Assembly: GCA_003058525.1 (NCBI GenBank)
Contig: QBVD01000064.1
Location: 1-64,000 of the forward strand
Reading direction: 5' to 3'
DNA from: a gamma proteobacterium symbiont of Ctena orbiculata
Lineage (GTDB): Bacteria; Pseudomonadota; Gammaproteobacteria; Chromatiales; Chromatiaceae
Length of the DNA: 64,000 nt
Part shown: positions 56,510 to 64,000 of the stretch, piece after piece
Layout: each line of letters begins with the position of its first letter
Position numbering within the stretch: the stretch's first letter is position 1
Position numbers and translations under genes: made by a program
The notes under the pieces: generated by a model
Seen by the model: the letters and a program-made list of their open reading frames with translations, nothing else
Told to the model about the DNA's origin: nothing
Databases searched by the model: none

Positions 56510-57817
56510 TTATTGCTGGCTGATCGGCAACTTACCTTCCAGCGACTCGAGAAAGGCCACAATCTCTTCAACCTCAGTATCACTCAAGGCCTGATGGCTC
56601 TCTACCCTGAGTCGTTTACTGTTACTCAGCCATTGAATTGATCTGTCATCAGTGTCCCTATTGCTTATGGCTTTGTTCAACTGAACATGGGCCATGATGC
56701 GTACCGCCTCTTCCAGAGTGGAAACAGAACCATTGTGGAAATAGGGACCGGTTCGAGTGACATTGCATAGCGAAGGAATGCGCCAGACACCTCTGTCCGA
56801 GCCGTTATCCTTTGGTGCTGCTCCGAGATCATCGCTTAGACGATGCCGCTGCTCATACACCGTATTGGGAATGGTAGGGAATATCCTGTAGGGCGTGTCG
56901 TCACTGAACAGACTTGCTGCACTGAAATTCGGTCCGGAGTGGCAAAGGATGCAGCCGGTGGACTCGAACAGCGCCATACCGCGAATCTGCTTTTCAGTGA
57001 GTGCGCTCGAATCGCCCCTGGTAAACCGGTCATAGGGTGAGTCAGGCGTGATCAGGGTGCGCTCATAGCTGGCGATAGCCATTGCGATGGTGTCGATGGT
57101 GATCGCCGGCCGGGTTGGAAACGTTGAGCTGAACAACGCCTGATACTCTGGAATATTGCGTACTGTCTTTACCACATGATCCAGTGAGGGCATACCCATT
57201 TCGATCGGGTTGATCAGCGGGCCCTTTGCCTGCTCCTCAAGTGATGTGGCGCGCCCGTCCCAAAACAGTACTTTCTGGAAGGCCGCATTGAATACTGTGG
57301 GGGCGTTCCTGGTGCCCTGTTTACCGTCTATACCGATCGATGCGGTCAGTCCGTCCCCACCACCTTTGTCATCGGTGAGTTCATGACAGGATGCACATGA
57401 AAGCGAACCGTCTGCCGATAGCCGCGTATCGAAGAACAGCTTTTCGCCCAGCCTGATTTTTTCGGCAGTAGGCGGGTTGTCCTCAGGATATGGAGCTGAG
57501 GTGGGCAGTGCCTGCCAGGTATAGGGGGTTTTGAATATCCTTGAATCATAGCGTTGGTCGGTAGATGCAATGACCGATGCAAACTCATGCTCACGTTCGG
57601 GAAACAGCGACAACATAGGCCCGGGGAAGAGTGAGAAGATCACGATAAGCCCAATCTTCAGACTGAATGCGATGATACCGGTACCGAGGCCAATCCCAAG
57701 GAACCATTTTCGTCGCTGATTGGGTGTGAGTTCGCGAACCATGCTGATCAGCAGAAAAAAACCGGCTATGATTGCAATCAATCCAAATGCCAGAAGCTCA
57801 ATTATTCCCGTATTCAT
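56510..57817 (-). CDS. Di-heme cytochrome c peroxidase family protein
   Basis: 435-residue member of the CcpA/MauG family. An N-terminal transmembrane anchor (IIELLAFGLIAIIAGFFLLISMV and a second hydrophobic stretch) holds it to the membrane. Two heme c sites are present: CASCH (about residue 137-141) and CILCH (about 285-289). Other family text: LGEKLFFDTRLSADGSLSCASCHELTDDKGGGDGL and RNAPTVFNAAFQKVLFWDGRATSLEEQAKGPLINPIEMGM. Classical members reduce H2O2 with electrons from cytochrome c or act in protein modification. It follows the small membrane protein gene at 57866 by 48 bases on the same strand. Confidence 0.92.
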   Translation of the reverse strand: MNTGIIELLAFGLIAIIAGFFLLISMVRELTPNQRRKWFLGIGLGTGIIAFSLKIGLIVIFSLFPGPMLSLFPEREHEFASVIASTDQRYDSRIFKTPYTWQALPTSAPYPEDNPPTAEKIRLGEKLFFDTRLSADGSLSCASCHELTDDKGGGDGLTASIGIDGKQGTRNAPTVFNAAFQKVLFWDGRATSLEEQAKGPLINPIEMGMPSLDHVVKTVRNIPEYQALFSSTFPTRPAITIDTIAMAIASYERTLITPDSPYDRFTRGDSSALTEKQIRGMALFESTGCILCHSGPNFSAASLFSDDTPYRIFPTIPNTVYEQRHRLSDDLGAAPKDNGSDRGVWRIPSLCNVTRTGPYFHNGSVSTLEEAVRIMAHVQLNKAISNRDTDDRSIQWLSNSKRLRVESHQALSDTEVEEIVAFLESLEGKLPISQQ

Positions 57818-57865
57818 CCTATCTCTTCAGTCCGCTAAATGTGGCAGATCTACATGCTGAAGGGG

Positions 57866-58045
57866 TTACTTGAAGCCAAGCTTTCTATACAGCACCAGTC
57901 CTGGACAGAGACCCGTAAGGCCGGCGAAGACCAGCATCCCGGCAGGCAGATAGAGGAACCAATGCACCTGATTCCAGCCGGACAATCCGATCCCGGCAAA
58001 GAGCAGTGCGGCGATGGTCAAAAACAGCATTCGCTGGGCACTCAT
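57866..58045 (-). CDS. Small membrane protein (DUF2892-like)
   Basis: 59-residue protein with two transmembrane helices: MLFLTIAALLFAGIGLSG and HWFLYLPAGMLVFAGLTG, then LCPGLVLYRKLGFK. This is the YgaP-type/DUF2892 pattern, including the CPG near the C-terminus. ATGGAGATCAACG precedes the ATG at 58045 with GGAG seven bases away. Function unknown; in other organisms similar domains accompany rhodanese or sulfur-handling proteins. It is upstream of the di-heme peroxidase gene on the same strand and divergent from the LysR gene. Confidence 0.8.
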   Translation of the reverse strand: MSAQRMLFLTIAALLFAGIGLSGWNQVHWFLYLPAGMLVFAGLTGLCPGLVLYRKLGFK

Positions 58046-58157
58046 CGTTGATCTCCATAGTGTTGAATTGTGTCGATGAAAAGCATAAGCTCGAGACGAA
58101 TAATTGAGAAATTCTATTTATGAATACTATTTATTTGATATCCGAATAAATTAAGTT

Positions 58158-59102
58158 ATGAATCTAAAGCAGCTTCAGTTTGCCGTGCACGTAGCCGAGA
58201 CCCACTCGTTCAGTCGCGCTGCGGAGCTTTGCTTCGCCACTCAACCGACGTTGTCGAATGCCATCTCGCAACTTGAGGATGAATTGGGGGGGAGGTTGTT
58301 CAGTCGCACGACGCGTAGGGTTGATCTGACTCCCTTCGGCGAATATATGCTGCCGCGTATCAAGGATGTACTACTGAGTCTCGATGAATTGACCAAGGCG
58401 GCAGAGTCCTTCCACAATCCCACGCATAAGATTTTGCGCATTGGTTTTTCTCCCCTGGTCGACATGCAGAGGCTGGATCATGTGTTGGCGCCGTTTCGAC
58501 AGGCAAATCCGGATATCACGATCTTCTTCAAGGAGTGTTTTATCGATGACCTTGCCGAGCGTCTGAACAGGGGACAGATCGATGTGCAGATCCTGCCGAC
58601 GACAACTGAGAGTGAGAGAGAACATGCCTGCCTTTTCTACCGGGATTCTCTCCACTACCTGCCGGCGGCTGATGACATTCAAGTGGCGAATCATCTGTCA
58701 TTCAAAATAACAGACCTGCCTGCCACTCCGATCATCCTTACAGGTGGCGGTTGCGGACTGAATGCTGCCTTGTCAACGTTACTCAAATCCCAGGGTGTTG
58801 AGTTGCATGCCTATGCGGGGCAGGCCCTGACCTATCAGGTGATCGAGGATTGGGTCTCATTGGGAATAGGCGCCGGTATTCTGCCGAAGGCCAAAATATC
58901 ACCAGACAATATGGCCAACTTTCCGCTATTTATCGATAAAGATGAACCCGCCTGTTTCAGCTTTGAGTGGAGTTGGCAATCTGAAAGCACTGAGTCCGCG
59001 CATGTTCAATCGTTTATCGATTATATCCGGACGACAGTCCCCGCATTGGTTTCCGGTCAGGCCGAGACAGGCAGTCAGCAAAGTGTTGGCCAATCAATTT
59101 GA
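58158..59102 (+). CDS. LysR-family transcriptional regulator
   Basis: 314-residue regulator with an N-terminal winged helix-turn-helix (MNLKQLQFAVHVAETHSFSRAAELCFATQPTLSNAISQLEDELGGRLFSRTTRRVDLTPFG) and a C-terminal periplasmic-binding-like effector domain (about 90-300). It is divergent from the DUF2892-peroxidase pair across a 112-base gap and lies 142 bases upstream of the truncated hemoglobin gene, so it may control either or both, as LysR genes often regulate a divergent neighbour. The inducer is unknown. Confidence 0.9.
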   Translation: MNLKQLQFAVHVAETHSFSRAAELCFATQPTLSNAISQLEDELGGRLFSRTTRRVDLTPFGEYMLPRIKDVLLSLDELTKAAESFHNPTHKILRIGFSPLVDMQRLDHVLAPFRQANPDITIFFKECFIDDLAERLNRGQIDVQILPTTTESEREHACLFYRDSLHYLPAADDIQVANHLSFKITDLPATPIILTGGGCGLNAALSTLLKSQGVELHAYAGQALTYQVIEDWVSLGIGAGILPKAKISPDNMANFPLFIDKDEPACFSFEWSWQSESTESAHVQSFIDYIRTTVPALVSGQAETGSQQSVGQSI

Positions 59103-59244
59103 GAACGATTGGGATTGATTTAAAAACTGAATAAATTACATTCTTAAATACAATTTCTAATTTTATCGACATATACCTACCCTGAAACAGCGGCCGACAA
59201 CCGAGTCGCTTTGCAAACAAATTTTGCCGTTAAGGAGTAGTGTT

Positions 59245-59712
59245 ATGAAGACCCGTTTTCACCAGTTTGCCATTACCGCTGTTCTGCCACTTGCATTGGT
59301 GTGTGCTGCACCATCAGCAATCGCCGGCGACAATGATCCATCACAAGTCTCTCTCTATGAACGGCTGGGCGGTTATAACGCCATCAGTGCTGTGGTGAAT
59401 GATGTGGTTGTGCAGATTGCAGCAGATGAAAAACTCGGGCGCTTTTGGGCGCATCGCGGTAGTGACGGGATTTCAAGGGAAAAACAGTTGATTGTGGATT
59501 TTATCGTCTCTAAGGCGGGTGGCCCGCTCTACTACAGAGGGCGGGAGATGAAACTTTCCCATGAGGGTATGAGGATAGATGAGAAGGATTGGGAGATCCT
59601 GATCACCGCACTGAAAAATACCCTGCACAAATTCAAGGTACCCGCCACAGAGAGTCGTGAAGTGTTGGATTTCTTTGCCGGCACAAAGAAAGACATTGTA
59701 GAGAAATCCTAG
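59245..59712 (+). CDS. Exported group 1 truncated hemoglobin
   Basis: 155-residue globin with a Sec signal peptide (FHQFAITAVLPLALVCAAPSAIAG, cut after AIA). The group 1 fold is visible in SLYERLGGYNAISAVVNDVVVQIAADEKLGRFW and in the proximal heme His within MKLSHEGMRIDEKDWEIL, the usual F8 position. I choose the ATG at 59245 because TAAGGAG precedes it and the signal peptide then starts normally; an upstream in-frame start exists. Periplasmic truncated hemoglobins of this kind are thought to bind NO or O2. It is followed by an HbpS-like gene. Confidence 0.9.
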   Translation: MKTRFHQFAITAVLPLALVCAAPSAIAGDNDPSQVSLYERLGGYNAISAVVNDVVVQIAADEKLGRFWAHRGSDGISREKQLIVDFIVSKAGGPLYYRGREMKLSHEGMRIDEKDWEILITALKNTLHKFKVPATESREVLDFFAGTKKDIVEKS

Positions 59713-59846
59713 CATCGTCTGACAGGTTTTATCGACCTGTTGCCTACCGATGACGGATAACTCTCAGCGTGTGATCAGAGTGGCTTGACCTGTTAGATTG
59801 CTCGCTGAGAGTTTGGCGGAAAATCATTGTTTACCGGAGTAAAAAA

Positions 59847-60383
59847 ATGCTATCCAGGAGCCTCTACTTACTGACCGTGCTTGCCATATTCTTTAACAGT
59901 TCCGCAAATGCCGACTCGCAGCATGGCAGTGCTGTTTATCAGTTTCGGTCGATCTCATTGGAAATGGCTTCCAAGGCGGCATGGGGCGCAATCAATGACT
60001 GCCGTAATCGAGGTTATTCTGTTGCGGCTGCAGTGGTGGATCGCGGTGGCAATATACAGGTTCAGCTACGAGACCGTTTTGCCGGTCCACATACTTCGGA
60101 GACCGCATATCGGAAGGCCTGGACAGCCAACAGCTTTCGCCAGTCAACTGCCGAACTGGCAGGCATGCTTGAGGAACGGCGCATTCCTGACCAAGTGGCT
60201 AACAATCCCGGTGTACTGCTTGTGGGTGGTGGCTTGACGATAGAGGCGGGTGGTGAATTTCTAGGTGGTATCGGTATCTCGGGCGCGCCACCGGGGAATT
60301 CCGAACGGGACAGCATTGACGGCGTTTGTGCCATGGCTGGACTCGAAACGGTACGTGATGCATTGGAGTTCGCTGATGAATAA
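59847..60383 (+). CDS. Exported HbpS/GlcG-family (DUF336) protein
   Basis: 178-residue protein with a signal peptide (LLTVLAIFFNSSANA). The DUF336 heme/cofactor-binding fold is seen in ISLEMASKAAWGAINDCRNRGYSVAAAVVDRGGNIQVQLRDRFAGPHTSETAYRKAWTANSF and NNPGVLLVGGGLTIEAGGEFLGGIGISGAPPGNSERD. Members such as HbpS bind heme and iron, and others bind cobalamin or unknown ligands. It lies 134 bases behind the truncated hemoglobin gene; the pair may handle heme or NO in the periplasm (inference). Despite the name GlcG it has no link to the glycolate genes here. Confidence 0.87.
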   Translation: MLSRSLYLLTVLAIFFNSSANADSQHGSAVYQFRSISLEMASKAAWGAINDCRNRGYSVAAAVVDRGGNIQVQLRDRFAGPHTSETAYRKAWTANSFRQSTAELAGMLEERRIPDQVANNPGVLLVGGGLTIEAGGEFLGGIGISGAPPGNSERDSIDGVCAMAGLETVRDALEFADE

Positions 60384-60949: not shown

Positions 60950-63900
60950 ATGCCAGCACGGATTCCGACCCCTGATCAGTCCCGCAAGTTGTCCGGAGAA
61001 CGTAAAACCGTCGCGCAACGACGAGTCTTTTCCCCCGGAGAAGATCTACATTTGCGCTATTCTCAAGTCGCATTACCATTTTCTCCGGAACATGCTGGGT
61101 ATTTAGCGATACACCTTGCCTCGCTCGATGCGGTTTCTTTTGGCGAATTCAAGGAGCTCGTGCAAAGGCTGGACAAAAACGCGCGCGATCACGGGTTTGA
61201 AGGGCTCACGGTCGCTTGTGTTTCGTTCGGACTTTGGCGGCACTGGCATGAGCAGGGAGATGTCGCTCTCGACCCAGAGTTGTTCGAGGGAGCCGAGGCG
61301 CTTGAGGCGGTGCTTTCACGAAATGATCCACCCTATGCCTTTGATGGTGGCGAGTTCTTCTTTCACGTCAAGGCGACGACGCGGGAGGAATGTGAAACCA
61401 TCATACGCGTCGTTCTTTATGCCCTGCGTGATAAGGTGAATATCGAGAAATCGGTCTGTACGATCGGTGATTCGATCCATGGTGGTCGAATATATGGCGG
61501 ACGCATGTTACATGGCCTGATCTCTTCGGTGGAACCGGTCGGCTTTTCCGCTCGCGCCATCATTGGCCATGAATTCCCTTCACACCGTGGCGGTTGTTTT
61601 GCCGTGACTCAGCAATTTATCCACGACTGGCAGCAATTGTCAGGTATGGCGGACAATCAGATGGAAAATCTGATTGGCCGTGATCACAATGGAAATATCA
61701 TTACTAATGACGATTCAGCCGCTCATGTAAAGATGGTTCGCGTCAATGATGAAGACGGTCTCAACTATCGCCATATCTCCCAAAGTCAACCGTTCCGGGC
61801 CCGCTCACGGATTGTCCGGGACGAAAAAATTTATGTGATCGAGGACAAGCCCCGCCGTCCGGAAATTGGACCGGGCAAGGAAGAAGGTGTCTATCAAGTC
61901 TCCTACACAAAGACCATCGCGGCGCTGACCCGAGTGTTGGAGAATATGATCGGCTCCGATCCCGGCTATATTAAATGTCGTCATTTGAATTTCTCCCATG
62001 CTGATTCGGGATCGTACTGGTATGTCCCTAGCGCGGTGGAACTGGGCCTGGAGGCCCCTCACGATGAACTCACCGTGCCCATGAATGAGTTCTTCGATAT
62101 CCGTTCGTCCAATGGGTTTATGTTTTATAACGCAAAGGATTATCTGCATCATGTGGGAAATCGTGCCCCTCAAGCGGCGACGCTATCACCGCAGCCCTCT
62201 GATCGCGTGGTGGAGCTCTTGGGCAATACGTTTTCCCGCTGGCACGATACCTGGTATCGACGTCGCCCGGCCCCGGAGTTAGGGCACTTGAAGAAATGGT
62301 TACGGTCCGGTGATGGGGATTTAAATCAACTTAGCTTAGCCGAACGTAAAGGGCTAGCGACCAAACGCACCTTGGAACTTCTGTCTAGCAGCGGACTGGG
62401 TAATGAATTCGATACCTTTCGAATTCACCCATCGGAGTTGATTGTGGGCGTTGTCCCCGAATTTACTCTGGGGAGCGGCTTCGAAGCCATGGATTACATG
62501 AATGAGGCCGAGAGGGAGAACGCTTTTGTTCTTAGGCTTAATGAGGCCGGAGCCGCGGGACATAACGTACCTAACTACGCTCGGGCGGTCTCAGTGGGTA
62601 TCGGTACCTTGACAGACGAGATAAGGCAAAGAAGGGACGAGGCTACAAGCGAGGAATCGAGAGCATTTTACGCCTCTGCGTTACTTGCTTATGAGGGAGT
62701 GACCTCTTATCTAAAGAACTATGCCGAATTGGCGAGGAAGCGGTCCAGTGAAATATCTTCATCTCGTGCCGAAGAAAGGGAAAATCTTCTAGCGATTGCG
62801 GAGCGATTCGAGAGGTTGGGTAAAGATCGTCCCACCTCGTTTGTCGATGCAGCGCAACTGGTATTTTCTCTCCACTGTTGCATGCATATATCAGGAGAAT
62901 CCGTCTCTATCGGTCGATTAGATCAAATACTCAATCCGTTCTACGAGTCGGACTTGTCCGCGGATGAGATTACGCAGGCGCAAGCGCAGGAGATCATCGA
63001 TTGTTTCTGGCTCAAGATGAATGAAAAAGTCTTGCTCAATCACCGCCATTTCAATGACCGTCTATCCCGGGGTTCAGGCGCCATTCCCTATGAGGGAGGC
63101 GATTTTCCCCAAGGCGCCGCATTGAACCAATGGGTTCAACAAGTCACCGTCGGAGGTTCCAAGGCAAACGATTCCGAGGTACCCGAGGATGCCAGCAATG
63201 AGGTCACTCGGATGTGCTTGCGGGCCGCGCGAAGGTTGCCGCTGAATGCGCCTTGTCTGTCCCTAAAGGTCAGTTCTCGCACACCTCAGTGGGTTTTTGA
63301 CGAGGCTGCCAAGGTTGTCCTTTCCGGAGGCGGTCATCCGTTTCTGATCAATGACGATAAGATTACGGGCGGCTTAATGGAAAGCGGGCATAGAAGCGGC
63401 GGTGAAGGTGAAATGGAGTTGGCCGATGCTCGTGATATGGTTTGCGACGGATGTTTCGAGTCGCTGGTCGCCGGTAAGAACGAGTTCGCCTTTTCCTATG
63501 TGCCGGTACCGGATGCCATAGAAATGGCCTTGAACCGAGGTCGCACCTATGCCGCGGCGGGACCCGTGCATATTACCGGATTGAAAGCGTCGTTTCGTTC
63601 GCCGCCGGCGAAAGAGATCAAGGATTTTGATACGTTCTATGACATCTTTTTAGATCATTACCGTTTCAAGTTGATCGATTTCTTCTCGGGCATGCTGGTT
63701 CGCTACGGTAATCTGAATGCCGTCTGTCCAAGCCCGTTGTTATCTCCGTTGATAGACGGTTGTTTGGAAAGCGGGCGGGACTTGACCGCCGGTGGGGCTA
63801 GGTACAAATTAGTCGCGCCCTTGATGAACGGAATGGCTTGCGCTATCGATTCCCTTTGGGCAATCCGAAGCTTGGTTTATAGCGAGGAAGCGGTGTTGAC

Positions 63901-64000
63901 GCTTGATGAGTTGGTACACGGATTGATCTGCGATTGGGGGCACGATATGAAGGAGCCGTTTTATCCCGCCTCGTTGGGTGAGGATCGGATCGCGGTTCAA
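60950..64000 (+). CDS. DyP-type peroxidase fused to glycyl radical enzyme (partial)
   Basis: A single frame of 1017 codons without a stop, running out of the window. AAGGAG lies eight bases before the ATG. Residues about 35-370 form a DyP-type heme domain (YfeX branch): VSFGLWRHW, GCFAVTQQFIHDWQQLSGMADNQMENLIGRD, proximal His259 in SAAHVKMV, Arg274, and a C-terminal YQVSYTKTIAALTRVLENMIG. The distal GxxDG Asp is replaced (GLISS, residues 189-193). Residues about 465-1017 form a PFL-type glycyl radical enzyme: AGHNVPNYARAVSVGIG, RLDQILNPFYESDLS, LINDDKITGGLMESG, the thiyl Cys835 with Glu837 in VCDGCFESLVAGK, and SPLIDGCLESGRDLTAGGARYKLV. The Gly-radical loop lies beyond the edge. It is next to a tRNA-Leu fragment. 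Confidence 0.88.
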   Translation, partial: MPARIPTPDQSRKLSGERKTVAQRRVFSPGEDLHLRYSQVALPFSPEHAGYLAIHLASLDAVSFGEFKELVQRLDKNARDHGFEGLTVACVSFGLWRHWHEQGDVALDPELFEGAEALEAVLSRNDPPYAFDGGEFFFHVKATTREECETIIRVVLYALRDKVNIEKSVCTIGDSIHGGRIYGGRMLHGLISSVEPVGFSARAIIGHEFPSHRGGCFAVTQQFIHDWQQLSGMADNQMENLIGRDHNGNIITNDDSAAHVKMVRVNDEDGLNYRHISQSQPFRARSRIVRDEKIYVIEDKPRRPEIGPGKEEGVYQVSYTKTIAALTRVLENMIGSDPGYIKCRHLNFSHADSGSYWYVPSAVELGLEAPHDELTVPMNEFFDIRSSNGFMFYNAKDYLHHVGNRAPQAATLSPQPSDRVVELLGNTFSRWHDTWYRRRPAPELGHLKKWLRSGDGDLNQLSLAERKGLATKRTLELLSSSGLGNEFDTFRIHPSELIVGVVPEFTLGSGFEAMDYMNEAERENAFVLRLNEAGAAGHNVPNYARAVSVGIGTLTDEIRQRRDEATSEESRAFYASALLAYEGVTSYLKNYAELARKRSSEISSSRAEERENLLAIAERFERLGKDRPTSFVDAAQLVFSLHCCMHISGESVSIGRLDQILNPFYESDLSADEITQAQAQEIIDCFWLKMNEKVLLNHRHFNDRLSRGSGAIPYEGGDFPQGAALNQWVQQVTVGGSKANDSEVPEDASNEVTRMCLRAARRLPLNAPCLSLKVSSRTPQWVFDEAAKVVLSGGGHPFLINDDKITGGLMESGHRSGGEGEMELADARDMVCDGCFESLVAGKNEFAFSYVPVPDAIEMALNRGRTYAAAGPVHITGLKASFRSPPAKEIKDFDTFYDIFLDHYRFKLIDFFSGMLVRYGNLNAVCPSPLLSPLIDGCLESGRDLTAGGARYKLVAPLMNGMACAIDSLWAIRSLVYSEEAVLTLDELVHGLICDWGHDMKEPFYPASLGEDRIAVQ

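Follow-up and report, generated by a model that had tools for sequence, protein, structure and literature searches.

Near its 3' end the window (the whole 64,000-nucleotide stretch of contig analysed, from a gammaproteobacterial symbiont of Ctena orbiculata) carries a gene that joins a DyP-type domain to a PFL-like glycyl radical enzyme (GRE). With moderate confidence, this is read as a DyP-PFL fusion in which the DyP half is without the standard peroxide-splitting residues and would be the impaired partner of a GRE that probably functions: His188 stands opposite Asp or Glu and Ser277 opposite Arg, and His259, Cys835, Glu837 and Gly1228 are present in seven of seven fusions. The DyP-PFL fusion itself is already known; what is new, as judged by alignment, is a member in which the distal Asp has become His188 and the distal Arg Ser277.

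Such fusions were put in print in 2016, from proteobacteria and ascomycetes (PMC5041501, in the portion available, as for all that is cited from it here). The Chaetomium cochliodes protein described there has the same domain order as the window's, with DyP-B at the N-terminus and PFL/GRE at the C-terminus; its significance was called elusive, and it is induced 3-fold by H2O2 and 18.5-fold by peroxyacetic acid (PMC5041501). A putative PFL activase is also reported in that fungus, whereas the window's genome has no TIGR02494 match above cut-off. The likeness to the Chaetomium fusion is drawn from the published description, which in that portion does not take up the distal residues; the comparison by sequence covers the bacterial fusions and one IMG/VR contig. 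A literature search with most subscription papers outside its reach found PMC5041501 alone to join DyP, PFL and glycyl radical, and found no role in print for the DyP-GRE pairing; PMC4420034 is silent on both PFL and formate.

One open frame with two enzyme domains

The fusion gene (+ strand) starts at 60950, extends past the end of the window at 64000 and ends at contig position 64711 (contig C26; stop codon 64709-64711); its frame is open over all 1253 codons. The DyP-type (B-class-like) domain occupies 61037-62044 (+), residues about 30-365. It matches PF20628 (Dyp_perox_C; Pfam) over residues 202-363 (E 5.4e-9, 36.5 bits, cut-off 20) and TIGR01413 (DyP superfamily; NCBIfam) over residues 46-365 (E 1.2e-16, 60.9 bits, under that model's own cut-off of 100.5); its nearest PDB relatives are DypB and other DyPs, and by sequence it belongs with the B class. 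A linker follows (62045-62494, +; residues 366-515), and then the PFL-like GRE domain, from 62495 (+; residue 516) to 64000 and on to residue 1253 outside the window. PF02901 matches residues 516-999, inside the window (E 5.4e-96, 323 bits; Pfam); several PFL2/dehydratase GRE models in NCBIfam also match, all under their cut-offs. The glycyl radical domain, PF01228, maps to contig positions 64484-64651 (23.4 bits, cut-off 22.2) and is the only one in the genome among the matches listed. An unbroken ORF with DyP, PFL-like and glycyl radical matches is taken as a single DyP-GRE fusion, with the DyP-type domain N-terminal, a linker, and a C-terminal GRE that, on these profile matches, is complete.

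Six other full fusions were found: in Litchfieldella anticariensis (L002), on a plasmid of Asticcacaulis sp. AND118 (L014), in genomes G202 (L017), G619 (L018) and G1271 (L035), and on one IMG/VR contig (L020), which led us to consider a viral origin. These and the window make up the seven used for the alignment and all counts, from which we omitted a GRE-only remnant in G754 and G1247 and a Hymenobacter plasmid with a split GRE and a separate DyP gene. The remnant (L019, L034) has two in-frame stops, TAG and TAA. The fusion is rare. Among the 21 genomes in the window's own genus only the symbiont (G000) has it, and none of its 20 congeners does; the class sample holds it in 2 of 369 genomes, and the phylum sample of 398 genomes has two full fusions and one remnant (own genome included in all three). 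The family of Litchfieldella (275 genomes) likewise has two full fusions and one remnant, the class of G619 a single fusion in 385 genomes, and the plasmids a single one in 129 matched records with at least 80% coverage. Beside the Litchfieldella fusion, on the opposite strand, lies a large ORF (L002 3-7040), presumably RHS/toxin-complex-like.

The distal pocket

The distal loop, GRMLHGLISSVEP, lies at 61499-61537 (+). The initial annotation had assigned it to residues 184-196 of a DyP domain fused to a second domain and had reported the distal catalytic Asp as absent; both points are borne out, the partner being PFL-like and the site being without Asp in either possible register. Its further reading, Ser in place of Asp-Gly, gives way before six gap-free relatives, which put His188 (CAT, 61511-61513, +) at the site of the Asp of GxxDG, with the next Gly kept.

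The two registers arise as follows. The window aligned alone to DypB has Ser opposite Asp153, and phmmer and global alignment agree on this; the six full-length relatives, each aligned singly to DypB, have Asp (four) or Glu (two) there, and their acidic residue falls opposite Asp153 because the fusion loop is four residues shorter. In the alignment of the seven fusions, residues 176-228 of the window contain no gap in any row, and His188 is opposite D in L002, L017, L018 and L035 and E in L014 and L020, so that all seven carry D, E or H here, each a side chain capable of acid-base chemistry. Opposite Ser192-Ser193 the other six all have Asn-Pro. Against every relative, any shift of the window by -6 to +6 scores below zero shift, and a profile of the six fusions run against PDB chains lines up FxDGxxNP with the PDB DyPs in the same register. 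As the window is colinear on both sides, no shift is better and the profile agrees, the family register is preferred: distal Asp to His188, Asn-Pro to Ser192-Ser193. Ser at the Asp site, though plain pairwise alignment favours it, is ruled out by the six relatives; it was probably a product of that alignment to DypB. The DypB residue numbers used here (Asp153, Arg244) are those we take to be current in the literature; the distal residues themselves were checked in PDB variant chains, which include one entry each with the Asp, the Arg or a nearby Asn substituted.

The second distal residue is also replaced: the column of DypB Arg244 holds Ser277 (61778-61780, +) in the window and Arg in all six other fusions. 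An Arg had earlier been described as retained; the window's R185 and R244 are indeed kept in seven of seven, but neither is the distal Arg column. The proximal His had been described as retained too, and here the description holds: His259 (61724-61726, +), the heme ligand by homology, is present in every fusion. Sequencing error behind the altered pocket is unlikely, because it would have to account for several distinct changes (H188, S192, S193 and S277). The pocket is read from sequence because the AlphaFold models of the window's DyP domain (mean pLDDT 31) and of the Litchfieldella fusion (34) are both of useless quality.

Apparent drift in one half, constraint in the other

Constraint was compared between the halves by leave-one-out: for columns invariant in six fusions, the share kept by the seventh was counted. 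For the window the counts are 23 of 39 for DyP, 24 of 25 for the linker and 134 of 157 for the GRE; in the other six fusions between 74 and 100% of such DyP columns are kept, and between 83 and 98% of those of the GRE. Because three of the seven are close kin and gain from it, the fairer comparison is with L014 (23 of 31 DyP columns) and L002 (23 of 26). The difference between DyP and GRE loss is found in the window only among the seven (Fisher, uncorrected: p 5.8e-4, against 0.08 to 1 for the others). Family-invariant DyP columns changed in the window include N192, P193, S258, G283 and F316. In the DyP domain the window is 24 to 32% identical to each of the other six and forms a lone branch; this position inflates its losses, and the DyP-versus-GRE contrast within the protein is the sole control. 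With 23 of 39 against 134 of 157 columns kept, it seems that the GRE has remained under constraint and that the peroxidase pocket has drifted.

The GRE half and its activation

Cys835-Phe-Glu837 (63452-63460, +) supplies, by homology and alignment to solved GREs, the thiyl-radical Cys and the base Glu, and is present in all seven fusions, as is Gly1228 in the glycyl radical loop; the GRE half is probably functional. Diol dehydratase, CutC and other PFL-like GREs share Cys-x-Glu and the glycyl loop with it. The window's protein differs from them in the Trp after the radical Gly (RMGGW), where most GREs have Tyr, in the DyP domain in front, and in that no activase gene was recognised among the neighbours of the fusion.

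Oxygen destroys glycyl radical enzymes. No TIGR02494 activase scores above cut-off in the four fusion genomes searched (own genome among them, G1271 outside the search). Absence of any activase is not claimed, because an NrdG2-type protein, scoring 190.7 bits against a cut-off of 131.15, is encoded in the window's genome and might serve as the radical SAM activase of the fusion, or else of a class III reductase; because it carries this activase, the bacterium may also live without air. The AmmeMemoRadiSam radical SAM protein (AmrS) was rejected as a dedicated activase: this protein is general in the genus and occurs in 26 of 27 genomes, all 20 fusion-less congeners among them, and it was not found in fusion-bearing G202. 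The PF13353 profile is too broad to be of use.

What the altered DyP half may do

One way to judge the altered pocket is from its characterised relatives. DypB of Rhodococcus jostii and KpDyP are the same domain by sequence, with the same proximal His; the window departs from them in His188 for Asp, Ser277 for Arg, a loop four residues shorter and a fused GRE. In KpDyP, the D143A, R232A and double variants form Compound I at 1.9e3-4.5e3 instead of 6.2e6 per M per s, so that loss of either or both distal residues means about 1000-fold slower formation; in R232A the loop collapses (PMC6153280, in the portion available). With both distal residues replaced, this precedent argues against normal DyP peroxidase function in the window's domain. 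The initial annotation had proposed as much, and its proposal stands in part: slow peroxide cleavage through His188 is conceivable, because a distal His is the base in the actinobacterial coproheme decarboxylases, which share the DyP fold (PMC7611857, in the portion available). Loss of the Asp by itself would not prove inactivity, and by analogy His188 is a plausible weak substitute base; since Arg and Asn-Pro are lost besides Asp, slow or absent peroxidase activity is the more likely state. The initial annotation also named a sensor, an O2/H2O2 sink and an electron carrier as candidate roles, and the present results favour none of these over the others.

Across the family, the probable task of the DyP domain is to help the GRE: in bacteria exposed to air it would most likely clear H2O2, or species derived from O2, from around the oxygen-sensitive glycyl radical. 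The GRE would do the chemistry, a glycyl radical on Gly1228 generating a thiyl radical on Cys835. In the window's lineage the protective activity would now be weak, and the DyP domain may persist because it binds heme or supports the GRE structurally. Several points weigh against this reading of an impaired partner: His188 could restore the distal base; the lone-branch position inflates the losses; and the protective role is one that we infer, for a bacterium that, with its NrdG2-type activase, could live without air.

A second perspective takes His188 as a new distal base in a retuned, working pocket of His plus a small residue, as in the coproheme decarboxylases. Those enzymes, we assume, also do without the distal Arg (Ala207), and D, E or H occupies the distal site in every fusion. 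In CdChdC the distal His, on the loop between the barrel halves and in the place that the Asp takes in the DyP structure, deprotonates H2O2, and Compound I was trapped (PMC7611857, in the portion available). The likeness is confined to that one residue position, and in the window the Arg and the N192, P193, S258, G283 and F316 columns changed together with it, a pattern more suggestive of relaxed constraint than of tuning; a retuned pocket is possible but rather unlikely. We think it less probable again that the DyP domain is vestigial, heme binding gone, with the GRE alone mattering. The loss of 16 of 39 family-invariant DyP columns would fit, as would the stop-bearing remnants in G754 and G1247, because of which the gene appears dispensable in some lineages; however, the 1253-codon frame is fully open, the proximal His and the window's Arg244 are kept, and the domain still has its 24 to 32% identity to relatives.

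Two further roles look improbable. The domain could sense O2, H2O2 or heme, or feed electrons to the GRE; same-strand genes upstream for LysR, a truncated globin and an HbpS-like heme protein, with a di-heme MauG-like gene adjoining, would suit this, but no such heme genes were noticed in the flanks of the other fusions, where few neighbours were profile-searched and some flanks are short. Slightly more doubtful still is that the GRE radical comes from the heme domain in place of a SAM-dependent activase, through a Compound I or ferryl species that forms with H2O2 and oxidises a residue from which the radical would pass to the glycine. If so, the GRE would be switched on by peroxide in air, and the window's switch would be slow, with His188 as base and no Arg; the weakened pocket and the genome's NrdG2-type radical SAM activase speak against it.

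This family ties an oxygen-sensitive GRE to a heme peroxidase-like domain, and the window's fusion, a natural member that lacks both DyP catalytic residues and keeps the GRE, is a ready test of the pairing: should the protein still be GRE-active, the DyP half would be needed for something besides fast peroxide turnover.

Gene neighbourhood and a parallel in Hymenobacter

A Hymenobacter plasmid carries a GRE of the fusion's subfamily, split over two ORFs (42 and 37% identity), followed by a separate DyP gene. The best solved relatives of that DyP are 'deferrochelatases', not DypB; we take them to be of the EfeB/DtpB type. The gene (L015 10492-11860) has a frame break near its end, before the proximal His, and the remainder seems to run on in another frame. 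Because a DyP of another class stands beside a GRE of the same subfamily, the pairing appears, from these sequences, to have arisen twice; and because two DyP classes adjoin one GRE subfamily, this one Hymenobacter record suggests a functional link rather than a chance fusion.

On the 5' side of the window's fusion (56510-60383) are genes for a MauG/MbnH-like di-heme enzyme (- strand) and for LysR, a truncated globin and an HbpS-like protein (+ strand). On the 3' side (L003 10699-17771, contig C26 about 64698-71770) a same-strand run encodes a PLD-like protein, a cytidine deaminase, a protein without Pfam match to which we assign HAD-like motifs, a trypsin with a DNA/RNA non-specific endonuclease, and an SGNH hydrolase; it looks like an accessory cluster. 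A defence system was considered and set aside, PADLOC giving weak generic matches on the PLD and trypsin neighbours and none on the fusion; no literature uniting PFL, trypsin, phospholipase D and conflict systems was found.

The PLD-like gene next on the Hymenobacter plasmid and the PLD right after the window's fusion are 37% identical over 659 columns, and the trypsin-like proteins of the two clusters 27% over 259 columns. Related PLD genes are also met apart from the fusion, with matches in 54 plasmid records; in the three annotated neighbourhoods examined other than Hymenobacter, the annotation lists no DyP or PFL gene. A DUF2608 gene is found 3' of the fusion in G202 and G619 (by Pfam) and in G1271 (41-50% identity to those two). 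In two of the three annotated neighbourhoods, on Undibacterium and Methylobacterium plasmids (L056, L057), a DUF2278 gene is close to the PLD relative; DUF2278 also occurs two genes 5' of the Asticcacaulis fusion (L014).
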